From contig NZ_JAPEPB010000001.1 of assembly GCF_026340565.1 (NCBI RefSeq), positions 6,174,001 to 6,238,000 on the forward strand: a stretch of DNA of 64,000 bases. Reading direction: 5' to 3'. The position numbers and the translations under genes were made by a program. This stretch comes from Kitasatospora sp. NBC_01287 (lineage in GTDB: Bacteria > Actinomycetota > Actinomycetes > Streptomycetales > Streptomycetaceae). The notes under the pieces were generated by a model. The model was not told where the DNA came from, ran no database searches, and worked only from the letters and a program-made list of their open reading frames with translations. Positions 7,977 through 11,286 of this stretch are shown piece by piece (the stretch's first letter is position 1; each line of letters opens with the position of its first letter).

Positions 7977-8540
7977 TCAGTCCAGAACCATGGCGTAGAC
8001 GGCTTCACCGATCGGTCGGAAGCCACGCCGTTCCCACGCTTGCCGCAGCTTCTCCGATGCTTCCTCGTCCGGCCACCGGACCTCGGGGTCATCGGACTCG
8101 TAACTGCACACCTCCCCGGGGCCGTGCTGGAGGTGGATCGGCGCGGGATAGGTCACAGCCACCGTGCCGGGCACCGCGATGCGACGCATCGCGGTGAGCG
8201 CAAGGCTCATCCCCACGCTCTGGCCACGCCACTTCTCCTCAACTTCGACCGACTCCAGTAGCAGGAGCATCCTCGGGGCCATCGCGTCGACGGCCGGCGC
8301 GAGCCCGCCGTCCTCGGTGAAGATCACGCGGGGGATGCGGTCGAGCATTCCCGGGTCCGCCTCCAGCGCTCGGCGCGGGTCGGGGGTGGCACCTGGGATC
8401 ACTCGGGTGATCACGGCTGTGCCCACTGTCTCATCCGGCACGTAGAAGCTGATGTGCCAACGATCAGCGCGTGCGGTCCACGTCTCGTCGGCGAACTGCC
8501 GTGTCGTGTATTCGATATGGAGCCGGTCAGGGCTGACCAT
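7977..8540 (-). CDS. GNAT-like acetyltransferase family protein (substrate unknown)
   Basis: 187 residues. The segment LLLLESVEVEEKWRGQSVGMSLALTAM (given here only as a pointer to residues about 95-120) looks like GNAT motif A, with the acetyl-CoA loop as WRGQSVG; the C-terminus WERRGFRPIGEAVYAMVLD fits the last GNAT strand. The ATG is preceded by GGAGGAG, but that Shine-Dalgarno is part of a small hairpin (8548-8560) and a strong hairpin lies just upstream (8561-8593). The gene is the last in a series of minus-strand genes running from 11286. The fold is a motif-based inference. Confidence 0.65.
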   Translation of the reverse strand: MVSPDRLHIEYTTRQFADETWTARADRWHISFYVPDETVGTAVITRVIPGATPDPRRALEADPGMLDRIPRVIFTEDGGLAPAVDAMAPRMLLLLESVEVEEKWRGQSVGMSLALTAMRRIAVPGTVAVTYPAPIHLQHGPGEVCSYESDDPEVRWPDEEASEKLRQAWERRGFRPIGEAVYAMVLD

Positions 8541-8547
8541 GATCTCT

Positions 8548-8560
8548 CCTCCGAAGGAGG
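8548..8560 (-). promoter_or_regulatory. Hairpin covering the Shine-Dalgarno of the GNAT-like gene
   Basis: On the minus strand CCTCC-TTC-GGAGG precedes the ATG at 8540; the right arm contains most of the GGAGGAG ribosome binding site. Folding would hide the site, so translation may be low or conditional. The stem is short, so the effect is uncertain. Confidence 0.4.
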
Positions 8561-8593
8561 CAGGTCCCCCGCCGTAGTGCGGCGGGGGACCTG
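8561..8593 (-). terminator. Perfect 13-bp hairpin between the small-peptide gene and the GNAT-like gene
   Basis: Arms CAGGTCCCCCGCC (8561-8573) and GGCGGGGGACCTG (8581-8593) flank a 7-nt loop. It lies 18 bp beyond the stop of the 38-residue gene and just before the next start. There is no T-tract, as is common for Streptomyces terminators; it could also be an attenuator or mRNA stabiliser. Confidence 0.7.
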
Positions 8594-8611
8594 CCGCTGT
8601 ATCAGGGGCGT

Positions 8612-8728
8612 CTACTTCTGCGGGCTCGGGCCGGGGTTGGGGCTGGGGTTCTCCGGCGCGGGGTTGCCACGGTGCTTGGGCGGAGCCTTGTGGTCGCCCT
8701 TGTGCTTCATCGTGGTAAAGGTGCTCAT
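8612..8728 (-). CDS. Small 38-residue peptide, Lys/His- and Pro-rich
   Basis: A short frame starting MSTFTTMKHKGDHK and ending in Pro/Asn/Ser-rich sequence (PENPSPNPGPSPQK), with no transmembrane segment. It is supported by an excellent Shine-Dalgarno (AGGAGGAA, 7-8 nt before the ATG) and by a strong hairpin soon after its stop. It lies 130 bp downstream of the XRE/DUF5753 gene on the same strand. I do not recognise a family. The acidic-poor, basic N-half and proline-rich C-half suggest an unstructured peptide; a role as a partner of the regulator is only a guess. Confidence 0.55.
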   Translation of the reverse strand: MSTFTTMKHKGDHKAPPKHRGNPAPENPSPNPGPSPQK

Positions 8729-8858
8729 CGCTGGTTCCTCCTACTCGGTGAGGTGGTGTCGTTTCGGCGGCATCGGGCCCGGTCCCGGGGGTCGGGTGGG
8801 GCCAGGGGGCGGCATCGTCATCCCGGTAGCTCTCGACTTCCGTGGTTGGGAAGTCAAG

Positions 8859-9710
8859 TCAAGCGCTCTCGGGTCTCCGGTTCCAGGCGGTTTCTTGTTC
8901 CTTCAAGAACTCGTCCCGAATGCCTTCGATCATGTTCCGCATGGCATCTCCGACAATCGCCGACAGTTCGAAGTTGTCGAACTTCGCGCGGTACAGTTCG
9001 ATATCCTTCGGCTCGGTCGTCGTGATCTCGGCATGCGGAATCTCAACGATCACCAGACGGCTGTCGTAGACAATGAACGATGATGTTGACACCTCGCTCA
9101 TCGGTGCGGAGAGCGGCACGATCCCCAGCCACACATTTGGAAGCCTGGACAGAGTGGTCAGCCGGTCGAGCTGTACCGCCATTTCTGGCGGTGACAGCAG
9201 CCGCCAGCGGAGCACGGACTCAGTGATCAGATACCGGAAGGACCTGGTGGAGTCGAACAGTGCGGACTGCCGGTGGAGTCTCGCTGCCACCGTCCGGGTC
9301 ACTATGTCCTCGGTCAGCTCCTTGCGATCCAGAATGGCGCGGATGTACTCGGGCGTCTGGCACAGCCCGGGGATGCAGGAGGGCTGGAACACGCGTTGAA
9401 CCGTCGTATCGGATTCCACGGCGCGGATGGCGTCCTGATGGTGGTGAAGACCGGTGCGCCGGTAGGAGCGCCATGCGATCGCCTCGGTGGCTTCCCGGCG
9501 GGCTACCTCGATGAGCCCGGCCCGGACCTCGTCCGAGACGCCCAGGGCCGTCAGGATGCGGTCGGCATCCATGACGCTCGGGCTGAGCTTGCCGGTCTCG
9601 ATCCGACTCAGTTTGGACGGCGACATGGCAGCGCTGCGGGCGACTGCCTTGGCCTCTTTCCCGCTGGCCTGCCGCAGTTCCCGCAGCGTGCTGCCCATAT
9701 CGGCGGTCAC
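8859..9710 (-). CDS. XRE regulator with DUF5753 domain (WhiJ-like)
   Basis: 283 residues from a GTG whose bases overlap the TGA of the preceding DUF6879 gene (GTGA), implying translational coupling; an upstream GTG at 9731 or ATG at 9698 are alternatives. HTH_31-type helix-turn-helix is at the N-terminus (LRELRQASGKEAKAVA, SPSKLSRIETGK). The remainder is DUF5753, with the family pattern PSCIPGLCQTPEYIRAIL and later WLGIVPL. Proteins of this architecture (WhiJ-type) usually pair with a small DUF397 or DUF6879 protein and affect development and antibiotic production in Streptomyces. Here the partner is DUF6879. Confidence 0.9.
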   Translation of the reverse strand: MTADMGSTLRELRQASGKEAKAVARSAAMSPSKLSRIETGKLSPSVMDADRILTALGVSDEVRAGLIEVARREATEAIAWRSYRRTGLHHHQDAIRAVESDTTVQRVFQPSCIPGLCQTPEYIRAILDRKELTEDIVTRTVAARLHRQSALFDSTRSFRYLITESVLRWRLLSPPEMAVQLDRLTTLSRLPNVWLGIVPLSAPMSEVSTSSFIVYDSRLVIVEIPHAEITTTEPKDIELYRAKFDNFELSAIVGDAMRNMIEGIRDEFLKEQETAWNRRPESA

Positions 9711-10228
9711 GTTTTTCCGTACCGCTCCCACCAGTCGGTGAACGGCTCGGCGTGGGCCATCGCCACATCACGCCAACGCTGCCATTGTTCGAGATCAGAC
9801 TCCTGATCGGCGCCACGGAAGGAACCGCCCTCACCATACGCCATGGAGACGATCGAGGAATCATCGAACATCCAGAAATCGAGTACGCCTGCGAGCGGAT
9901 TGGATCCGTTCGTGACGTCCAGGATGAAGAATTCCTCGCCCGCTGTCTGGTTGGTCCGGTACCCCCAGTCCAGCTCGTACCTCAGGTAAGGACTGAGGGG
10001 ACGGGAGAGCACGTGCACCCGGTACATGCGCCGCCCGGCGTCCGTGTTGCGCTTCACCTGGGCCAACCACGCGGAATTGTAATCGTCCGGCTTCTGCTCG
10101 CCGGCGAGGTACGCCCGCAGGTTGTCGACGCTCGAAGAACCGGTGTAGTCATCCAGACCTTCGAGGCGGAACGCCTCCCGCTGGAAGCCGTCGAAAAGCG
10201 CTCCGAAGGCCTCAGGTGAGATATTCAC
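9707..10228 (-). CDS. DUF6879-family protein (separate chain)
   Basis: 173 residues beginning at GTG 10228. Recognised by its overall pattern: N-terminal F..LFDGFQREAFRLEGLDDY, then a helix with W..A..VKRNTDAGRRMYRVHVLSRPL, Y.R.EL.WGY..N..AGE, and a C-terminal DFWMFDDSSIVSMAYG...W....MAHAEPFTDWWERY. It overlaps the small upstream gene by 17 bp and the HTH gene by 4 bp, so three genes appear to be one translationally coupled unit. Its homologue at 10546-11286 is fused to an N-terminal domain equivalent to the small upstream gene. Biochemical function unknown. Confidence 0.8.
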   Translation of the reverse strand: MNISPEAFGALFDGFQREAFRLEGLDDYTGSSSVDNLRAYLAGEQKPDDYNSAWLAQVKRNTDAGRRMYRVHVLSRPLSPYLRYELDWGYRTNQTAGEEFFILDVTNGSNPLAGVLDFWMFDDSSIVSMAYGEGGSFRGADQESDLEQWQRWRDVAMAHAEPFTDWWERYGKT

Positions 10229-10436
10229 GCGCCACCCGCTTCAGGAGTGACAACGGGATGCGCACCGCCGTCTCCGTATCGGGGAGCCGCATCGTGTCGA
10301 GTGCGTCCGGGTCGTCCACTTTGAACCCCTGCACGATCACGTCTTCGGGTTCCGCCATCCTCGGATCCGTGTCGATGGCCCACACGGTCGGACATGGCCC
10401 GTGCTCACACTCGCTCGCCAGCTCTTTCAGCTTCAC
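10212..10436 (-). CDS. Small conserved protein preceding DUF6879 (hypothetical)
   Basis: 74 residues. GTG at 10436 follows GAGGAGA with a 6-nt spacer, which fixes the start; an ATG 11 codons upstream has no such site. It has a Cys pair (CEHGPC) and then EDVIVQGFKVDDPDALD...AVRIPLSLL. The second half closely resembles the N-terminal segment of the protein at 10546-11286 (EVLVQGEAVTDPDEV...LVIVPRELL), so the two act as separate and fused forms of the same domain. It overlaps the DUF6879 gene by 17 bp. No known function. Confidence 0.75.
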   Translation of the reverse strand: MKLKELASECEHGPCPTVWAIDTDPRMAEPEDVIVQGFKVDDPDALDTMRLPDTETAVRIPLSLLKRVAREYLT

Positions 10437-10545
10437 GCTGTTCTCCTCAAGTCGGCGTTCCGGGCCCATGCTCTCGGCTCTGGTACGCCCGGGGCAAGGC
10501 CGGTGTGTTGTGGCAACGCGAAATCGGGCGTTCGGAAGTCGGTGC

Positions 10546-11286
10546 TCACTCGCCGGATGGTGCTTCAGCTCTGAAGTCCCGGTGAGGTGCGGCGAAGTGC
10601 CAAGCTGCGTCACGGACCTGGCAGGCACGAGCCACCTGCACTGGATCCGTGATCAGCTCCACACCCGTCAGATCGTCATCGGCGTCGAAGTGGAGCAGCG
10701 CGATAACGCGCGAGTCGAACAGCCAGGCGTCTTCGTCCGGAAGGCGCAGCCGGTCGGCATCGGCACGCCAGAGGTAACGGATGTCCTCTCCGACAGCGCT
10801 GTTCCGTTCGGCGTTGTCGAGAAGGTACCGCTGCCCCATGGTCGGAGGGCTGTCCATGATCCTTACACGCTCGAATCGCTTCCCCGAGGCGGTCTGTTCG
10901 CGGCGCGAGCGGCGCCAGGCGTCGTCCAGGTCCCAGCCCGCCGGCTGACTCGCGGTGAACCGCCGGCAGATGTCGGTCCGTTCGTCGGAGCGGTGCCGGC
11001 GACGCGTCTCCAGTCGGAAGGCCGTGTGCTCGAATGTCTCGAACATGTCGTCGAACTGTTCGAAGCTGATCAGCATCGGCTCTCGATCGGCGTCGCGCGG
11101 CGGGAAGTCGGCCAGCAGCTCGCGTGGCACGATGACGAGTCCCTCCCCGGCTTTGGCGTTGTGGAGTTGGGTCACCTCATCGGGGTCGGTCACTGCTTCA
11201 CCTTGCACCAGTACTTCCCCGGCGTCGATGTCTTCGTAGTGGGCGTGTGGGGCATCCCTACTCCGAACGGGTGTACTTTCGGCCAT
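10546..11286 (-). CDS. Fused protein: small EVLVQG domain plus DUF6879
   Basis: 246 residues. Residues about 15-60 (HYEDIDAGEVLVQGEAVTD, LVIVPRELL) correspond to the 74-residue protein at 10212-10436, and residues about 70-240 are a DUF6879 domain (FEQFDDMFETFEHTAFRLETR, GKRFERVRIMDSPPTMGQRY, EDAWLFDSRVIALLHFD). The Cys pair of the separate form is absent. ATG 11286 is chosen; a TTG at 11319 is possible and neither has a clear Shine-Dalgarno. It is divergent from the HTH/DUF5753/DUF397 gene at 11416, sharing a 129-bp promoter region. Confidence 0.75.
   Translation of the reverse strand: MAESTPVRSRDAPHAHYEDIDAGEVLVQGEAVTDPDEVTQLHNAKAGEGLVIVPRELLADFPPRDADREPMLISFEQFDDMFETFEHTAFRLETRRRHRSDERTDICRRFTASQPAGWDLDDAWRRSRREQTASGKRFERVRIMDSPPTMGQRYLLDNAERNSAVGEDIRYLWRADADRLRLPDEDAWLFDSRVIALLHFDADDDLTGVELITDPVQVARACQVRDAAWHFAAPHRDFRAEAPSGE

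Follow-up and report, generated by a model that had tools for sequence, protein, structure and literature searches.

A likely variant of the WhiJ/BldB switch in Kitasatospora: a small domain, DUF6879 and an XRE-DUF5753 regulator as one unit beside short-peptide genes

The closest described relatives of the locus reported here are the WhiJ/BldB pairs of XRE-DUF5753 regulators and small DUF397 proteins, cassettes that are present many times over in a genome and govern development and the production of antibiotics. Genomes carry a median of 19 bldB paralogues, and 129 BldB-WhiJ fusions have been reported; WhiJ9 recognizes direct repeats that precede iosA, its target gene, and no DNA binding was found for BldB (PMC10294661). 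Fourteen XRE-DUF397 pairs of S. coelicolor act as regulators (PMC10364602), DUF397/DUF5753 pairs have been noted near graspetides (PMC13097080), and DUF5753 regulators have been noted likewise (PMC8939145). We analyzed a window of 64,000 nucleotides from Kitasatospora sp. NBC_01287 (contig NZ_JAPEPB010000001.1, positions 6,174,001 to 6,238,000 of the forward strand), in which a small domain, hereafter SMALL, occurs with the protein family DUF6879 in both a fused and a split form next to an XRE-DUF5753 regulator. The four genes follow one another on the minus strand in the order given below; P0001 to P0005 and p187 are window proteins, L numbers denote fetched loci, and G numbers denote genomes.

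P0003, 10546 to 11286, minus strand: fused SMALL and DUF6879; an orphan without an XRE gene of its own, probably decaying
P0002, 10212 to 10436, minus strand: SMALL as a separate protein of 74 amino acids, with homologues directly 5' of DUF6879
P0001, 9707 to 10228, minus strand: DUF6879; predicted phospholipase-D-like subunit without the HKD motif, its fold taken from the model of the homologous P0003
P0004, 8859 to 9731, minus strand: XRE helix-turn-helix (HTH) and DUF5753 regulator; likely partner of P0001 and P0002

Pfam places P0001 (E = 2.6e-44, 151.1 bits) and P0003 (E = 1.6e-49, 168.1 bits; cut-off 23.9) in DUF6879 (PF21806) and finds HTH_31 (8.6e-17) and DUF5753 (1.4e-34) in P0004, which thus has the XRE HTH with DUF5753 of a WhiJ/BldB regulator. 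As the first-pass annotation of this DNA had reported together with the gene positions, P0001 and P0002 overlap by 17 bp, and this overlap is robust because the open frame of P0001 (9710-10240) extends just four codons 5' of its GTG. P0001 and P0004 overlap by 25 bp if the first GTG is taken as the start of P0004. A strong Shine-Dalgarno site, GAGGAGAAC, precedes P0002, and P0001 and P0004 have no clear ribosome-binding site, as expected of coupled starts.

SMALL, DUF6879, and the XRE-DUF5753 regulator are one three-part unit. Among 77 DUF6879 rows (78 before L158 was removed as a duplicate of L042), drawn from loci chosen by matches of P0001, P0002, and P0003 so that counts are biased and are not prevalences, 57 have SMALL 5' and XRE 3' in the orientation of DUF6879, with neither found elsewhere within 400 bp; the exceptions to this order are one row with XRE on both sides and one with XRE only 5'. 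Both partners stand in the expected places in 58 rows, SMALL alone in 7 (including window P0003), XRE alone in 1, and neither in 11 (one of them incomplete), and the presence of the two is linked (Fisher p = 5e-8, for rows selected from matches). Across 50 complete trios, pairwise distances correlate between SMALL and DUF6879 (Spearman 0.675), DUF6879 and XRE (0.785), and SMALL and XRE (0.544), with 0 of 2000 permutations as high in each case; these values are uncorrected for species descent, and many rows are paralogues within one genome. The first-pass annotation had proposed that the small protein and DUF6879 work as one, and order, co-occurrence, and distances among relatives bear this out, except that the unit has the regulator as a third part. 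Two further arrangements were seen: SMALL lies directly before an XRE regulator, with DUF6879 missing, at L131:3080-4095, and a tandem of three DUF6879 domains from different clades occupies L153:1531-3135, a locus that also has a peptide-type methyltransferase.

That one module exists in split form (P0002 and P0001) and in fused form (P0003) was confirmed through relatives. Compared directly, P0001 and P0003 share 28% identity over 167 amino acids (E = 4e-14), and P0002 matches the N-terminus of P0003 weakly (37% over 35 amino acids, E = 0.011); Pfam and NCBIfam searches gave no match for P0002. Used alone as a query, P0002 reaches the N-termini of fused or near-fused relatives (G002 at 3.6e-4, G027 at 7.6e-4, G022 at 5.1e-6, its own genome at 0.007) as well as small open reading frames (ORFs) directly 5' of DUF6879 in many genomes, and has a match at E = 0.01 in 30 of 61 genomes. 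A profile of SMALL iterated over the fetched loci, a check named in the first-pass annotation, matches both forms: window P0003 at 6e-12 and eleven other fused loci at 2e-15 to 6e-23, the same sequences having also built the profile. One of the two pairs of segments originally matched between the neighboring genes is therefore SMALL; the other (FEQFDDMFETF... with FGALFDGFQRE...) is DUF6879 aligned with itself. The consensus of SMALL, C/S-P-T-(L/V)-(Y/W)...(V/I)VQG...DP...E..V.(V/I)P..LL, comes from alignment A1 (110 of the 115 rows listed for it), which has no invariant columns. Sequence searches with SMALL against the PDB gave matches at chance level only. Homology of SMALL to DUF397 was considered and rejected, as hhalign (65 vs 53 sequences) scored no better than column shuffles, 11 of 60 of which were as high; in models of the two, only the strand order and the final helix are alike, a weak likeness.

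The coexistence of split and fused forms is general and not peculiar to this window. Nineteen of the 77 DUF6879 rows are fused to SMALL, 46 lie directly 3' of it, and 12 are without it, although frame shifts or sequencing errors may account for a few of the split rows, e.g., L154. The fused or split state must have changed at least 5 times on a tree of 72 DUF6879 domains, and a single fused clade is rejected (approximately unbiased test, p = 0.0028). The fused and split copies of the window fall into different well-supported groups and so are old paralogues instead of a recent pair; an origin of P0003 by recent fusion of the neighboring P0002 and P0001 is ruled out, as P0003 belongs to another old lineage. 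The adjacency of the two forms in the window, from which joint work of the two parts had first been argued, carries little weight because the fused copy is no sister of the split one and looks decayed.

The DUF6879-paired regulators form a branch apart from the known XRE-DUF397 pairs. In a tree of 76 XRE rows, whose DUF397-type members are only those lying by chance in loci fetched for DUF6879, a branch with support 100/99 separates all 54 regulators that have DUF6879 upstream from all 17 that have DUF397 downstream, and none of the 76 has both partners. P0004 groups with the DUF6879-paired regulators, a side that also takes the SMALL-only regulator and two without a visible partner. The cassettes resemble WhiJ/BldB pairs such as WhiJ9-BldB9 (target iosA) in the regulator family, the small partner, the fused and split versions, and the position beside a target gene. 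They differ in that DUF397 lies 3' of its regulator, whereas SMALL and DUF6879 lie 5' and no DUF397 was found with this clade, and in that the partner contains a second domain resembling phospholipase D (PLD). A Pfam search gave no DUF397 match in P0001, P0002, or P0003; the neighboring gene does have one.

P0005, 11416 to 12489, plus strand: XRE-DUF5753-DUF397 in one chain (WhiJ-BldB type), divergent from the module; a neighbor of a known kind

Relatives of P0005 up to 80% identical occur in other genomes and align across both parts.

DUF6879 probably is a relative, without an HTH, of DUF5753, the sensor domain that the regulator itself carries, as suggested by a profile alignment, a shared predicted PLD-like fold, and the missing HKD motif. 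With hhalign, DUF6879 aligns with the DUF5753 of its partner in one register at a score of 45 (E = 1.3e-6; 0 of 60 column shuffles reached this score, the highest being 22; an unrelated methyltransferase as control 16.7) and with the DUF397-paired DUF5753 at 22.4 (E = 0.0086, 0 of 60 shuffles as high). The model of P0003 has a predicted local distance difference test score (pLDDT) of 88.1 and a predicted template modeling score (pTM) of 0.79; ten-residue blocks score 91-98 over most of DUF6879 and 52-84 over the small domain and linker. Foldseek with VIA-align groups its DUF6879 with PLD-like proteins, in alignments that span residues 67-243 and hardly cover the fold of the small domain, and VIA-align matches the DUF5753 region of P0005 to the same chains. 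Z scores, obtained from predicted models only, reach 11.6 for DUF6879 and 11.4 for DUF5753; four of the chains are given here with root-mean-square deviation and aligned residues in brackets.

SauUSI (7clg): DUF6879 Z 11.6 (3.7, 144); DUF5753 Z 11.3 (3.0, 142)
NucT (6ehi): DUF6879 Z 10.9 (3.5, 128); DUF5753 Z 9.8 (2.8, 128)
FAM83B (5lzk): DUF6879 Z 10.5 (3.6, 134); DUF5753 Z 9.7 (3.2, 133)
TrmBL2 (5box): DUF6879 Z 10.3 (4.2, 128); DUF5753 Z 9.6 (3.1, 121)

None of 77 DUF6879 domains has the catalytic HKD motif in the expected place, near the DFW motif at residue 106; the HxKx4D pattern occurs in one, at residue 47. Sequence searches of DUF6879 and DUF5753 against the PDB gave nothing convincing. 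The archaeal regulators TrmB and TrmBL2 also have a PLD-like domain, here predicted, in a transcriptional regulator (structure entry 2f5t is titled for TrmB sugar binding), but theirs is on the HTH chain, whereas here an extra, HTH-less PLD-like subunit is present. The DUF1669 domain of FAM83 proteins, a pseudo-PLD scaffold that binds proteins and is not known to have phospholipase activity, shares the predicted fold; it belongs to animal proteins and has no known link to transcription cassettes. The literature searched does not mention DUF6879, and none of it combines "WhiJ" with "phospholipase D".

Many relatives of the module adjoin genes for modified peptides. A methyltransferase of the protein isoaspartyl methyltransferase (PIMT) type and of the peptide kind occurs in 22 of the 56 related loci that carry the trio; its best NCBIfam match is TIGR04188 (E = 3.7e-102, 342 bits, below the model cut-off of 380), and in Pfam it is PCMT. 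Among the matches listed (150 DUF6879 and 141 methyltransferase places), 49 DUF6879 places have such a gene within 5 kb, compared with 0.75 expected under a uniform placement that ignores the clustering of such genes in chromosome arms. DUF397 is the better control: in five genomes picked for many methyltransferases, 16 of 34 DUF6879 are near one vs 6 of 150 DUF397 (the 150 listed of 174 matches; p = 2e-9), and five of those six have a DUF6879 no more than 8 kb away. In 13 of 24 loci the methyltransferase gene follows a short ORF that satisfies a simple Gly/Asp rule, and eight of the 13 share ...GGGGS(D/S)EGGN(T/S)SDG.... The precursors of imiditides have a high content of Gly, Pro, Asp, and Lys, and imiditide clusters consist only of a precursor and a PIMT homologue, with modification seen in E. 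coli (PMC13001092). In imiditide and pamtide clusters, as in many relatives of our module, short Gly/Asp-rich ORFs stand before the methyltransferase. The main text of the imiditide and pamtide papers considered, a set outside which the founding imiditide paper falls, does not mention a regulator of such clusters, and nothing in the literature searched combines "pamtide" with "XRE". One identical-score peptide-type methyltransferase match was found on three contigs (G000:C1:8495070, C2:849136, C3:46546), possibly a terminal repeat shared by the chromosome and linear plasmids.

The window differs from imiditide clusters: a profile search of its ORFs between 3001 and 18000 found no PIMT-type methyltransferase, and Lys/His/Pro-rich peptides and a GNAT-like gene take that place, downstream of P0004.

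Candidate peptide 1, 8741 to 8821, minus strand: 26 amino acids, Pro/Gly-rich, unannotated, no clear ribosome-binding site
Candidate peptide 2, 8612 to 8728, minus strand: 38 amino acids, unannotated, KHKG..K.PPKH motif, AGGAGG site
Hairpin, 8559 to 8595, minus strand: stem of 16 bp, located after peptide 2 and before the GNAT-like gene
p187, 7977 to 8540, minus strand: GNAT-like protein; candidate peptide-modifying or immunity enzyme

A counterpart of peptide 2 precedes p187 homologues in 7 of 7 loci checked, the window included (the partial match and the weakest of nine were left aside), with KHKG, K, PPKH, and PAP invariant, and a similar ORF takes the place of peptide 1 in L231, L235, and L237. 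The nine p187 matches in 61 genomes come from five genomes, and six of them have a DUF6879 gene at a distance of about 5 kb or less; plasmid records gave no match. P187 shares 63-74% identity with six homologues. It has no Pfam match itself, and for two of these homologues the matches to GNAT families are weak and do not pass the cut-offs (E = 0.017-0.23). The hairpin region (8541-8611) has a minimum free energy of -45.8 kcal/mol (shuffle mean -26.5; 0 of 200 as low) and is a candidate attenuator or processing site. The module thus recurs beside two different pairs of peptide and enzyme, one with the methyltransferase and one with the GNAT-like gene.

Some loci share short words before the module and before the peptide genes. 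When the DNA before the module was compared with that before the methyltransferase within 22 loci (mean different-locus score 12.0), clade words, GAATATTCGAGAATC or TTTCCCGTTCCCGCAA-like, were found before both operons in L106, L146, L151, L152, L128, and L129. GAATATTCGAGAATC or a close form scores high in L106 and L151 and weakly in L111 and L150; CGGTTTCCCGTTCCCGCAA or a close form occurs in L129 and L128, weakly in L126 and L138, and L116 has another word. The first word matches at least 13 of 15 letters before the module in 12 of 19 fused rows, 10 of these at 188-193 of the 300-bp stretch before the domain. In the P0004 clade, 10 of 13 rows, among them the window, agree with the second word in at least 15 of its 19 letters (letter-shuffled stretches reach 11-13), and the best match to this word lies at 179-190 on the same strand in 11 of the 13. 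By eye, no direct or inverted repeat within single upstream regions was common to them.

Candidate operator before P0002, CGATTTCGCGTTGCCACAA, 10508 to 10526, minus strand: agrees with the clade motif in 15 of 19 letters; position 179-190 in the 300 bp upstream, as in 10 of 12 related rows

The 16-letter core of this candidate is the sole match in the window at up to 3 mismatches; at least 1 match arises in 19 of 100 whole-window shuffles. Separately, a perfect dyad, GACTTCC-N7-GGAAGTC, lies at 8835-8855 between the P0004 stop and peptide 1; it was not seen before the other six peptide loci, and a CGACTTCCG also stands before P0002.

The first-pass annotation knew of no described function for the unit; a function can now be proposed. 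We estimate a probability of about 0.6 that SMALL, DUF6879, and the XRE-DUF5753 regulator form a single regulatory device, a WhiJ/BldB-like switch in variant form with control over peptide clusters. Computation showed the anatomy of the module, its fusion and fission, a partner-specific regulator clade, DUF6879-DUF5753 homology, a shared predicted fold, linkage to peptide clusters, and, in some loci, shared motifs, and we infer from there to complex formation, DNA binding, a signal, and the direction of control. The clusters served are most probably those of short modified peptides. The XRE protein would bind an operator before its own operon and before the neighboring short-peptide operon, and its DUF5753 would pair with the related DUF6879 subunit. 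PLD-type domains often pair. SMALL may sit on this DUF5753/DUF6879 sensor, in place of the BldB-like DUF397 proteins of known pairs, and the complex would be altered by a signal, perhaps a metabolite or the peptide itself, so that promoters are released or activated. The PLD-like fold predicted for both DUF5753 and DUF6879, with the natural fusions, offers concrete complexes to test, and the methyltransferase linkage offers a candidate regulator for imiditide-type clusters.

For the window itself, the operon of the two peptides and p187 would be the likely target. More tentatively, the window may hold an undescribed ribosomal-peptide cluster, the peptide pair with p187, switched by a three-part regulator with a second, HTH-less PLD-like subunit, the same cassette elsewhere controlling imiditide-type clusters. 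If true, actinomycetes would have in this cassette a pathway-specific switch of general use for small modified peptides. Linkage to the module also offers a way to mine genomes for new classes of peptides, such as the peptide and GNAT-like pair seen here.

Several results speak against a regulatory device of this kind. Among the matches listed, the peptide-type methyltransferase is absent within 5 kb at 101 of the 150 DUF6879 places. Artefact-free operator scores of at least 14.6 were reached in only five of the 22 loci (L106, L151, L116, L129, and L128); L146 and L152 score just 12.8, near background, though they carry the clade word, and the remaining loci show nothing clear. The mean of the within-locus comparison is inflated by L113, which is divergent so that both regions are the same DNA, and by L136 and L120, which look like coding matches between paralogues. 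The clade words were derived from these same loci, which makes their fit partly circular, although their constant position is not. In the window the clade motif lies only before P0002 and not before the peptides, so control of the peptides and p187 by the module is only a prediction. The P0005 model is middling (pLDDT 80.2, pTM 0.54), and Foldseek alone gave it no match below E = 0.001, the best PLD-like row being Zucchini at 0.032. The hhalign comparison found no relation of SMALL to DUF397 above shuffles.

Alternatively, DUF6879 and SMALL could be accessory factors of peptide maturation that bind or chaperone the precursor, leaving the XRE protein as sole regulator. Their close linkage to both kinds of peptide and enzyme pairs would suit this role; we nevertheless consider it unlikely, since the trio of SMALL, DUF6879, and XRE is retained beside either of two cargo enzymes and also in many loci that lack both, since DUF6879 is a relative of the sensor domain of the regulator itself, and since imiditides are modified in E. 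coli from clusters of precursor and methyltransferase only (PMC13001092).

A toxin-antitoxin system is also improbable, although one was proposed for DUF397 pairs (PMC2701414) and the small overlapping genes, the XRE partner, the plasmid presence, and the patchy, multi-copy distribution would fit: DUF6879 exceeds the cut-off 12 times in the source genome and occurs in 14 of 296 genomes sampled from the phylum, and 83 of 72,556 plasmid records have a match, 75 of the 83 from Streptomyces. The fourteen S. coelicolor XRE-DUF397 pairs showed no toxin-antitoxin behavior on overexpression (PMC10364602), DUF6879 stands without SMALL and XRE in 11 of 77 rows, no toxin-like active site was seen, and in PADLOC P0004 matched nothing more specific than generic HTH models (best 4.3e-7), while P0001 had a short match to JetB (E = 0.006).

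We give little credence to the view that the window locus is mostly a relic, in which P0003 is dead and the other genes are no longer selected as a unit. P0003 itself is best seen as a decaying orphan copy. Of the 18 other fused rows, 16 start with a Shine-Dalgarno-like site followed by RRL..(I/V)GS...C(P/S)TLY(E/D)D or a close form; in P0003 no such site was found, and the conserved CPT letters are in another frame, behind a stop. Relatives about 80% identical to P0003 align only from residue 14 or later, the operator of its clade has 0 matches in the window at up to 3 mismatches, and P0003 is without its own XRE, which the 18 others have; a search for a remnant between P0003 and P0002 gave nothing better than E = 0.13. 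The G+C content at third codon positions, 0.76-0.81 in the module vs 0.88 in P0005, may mean recent arrival instead of decay. Against a relic, P0002, P0001, P0004, the peptides, and p187 are all open, starts are coupled, Shine-Dalgarno sites precede P0002, peptide 2, and p187, and a P0001 homologue with 74% identity lies within a complete trio of Yinghuangia seranimata (L239).

It is very improbable that DUF6879 acts as a PLD-type nuclease or lipase, perhaps in defense, despite a predicted fold close to the nucleases Nuc, NucT, and SauUSI, given that its single HxKx4D pattern is far from the DFW motif, that no phage record matches P0001, and that the JetB match from PADLOC covers just 29 residues.

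A HATPase_c-type (AbaA-like) gene was also seen near some modules: it lies at L124:3895-4401 and belongs to an ORF cluster in 8 loci, which is held together by BLAST linkage only and one member of which matched Pfam HATPase_c_2 at 1.8e-8.

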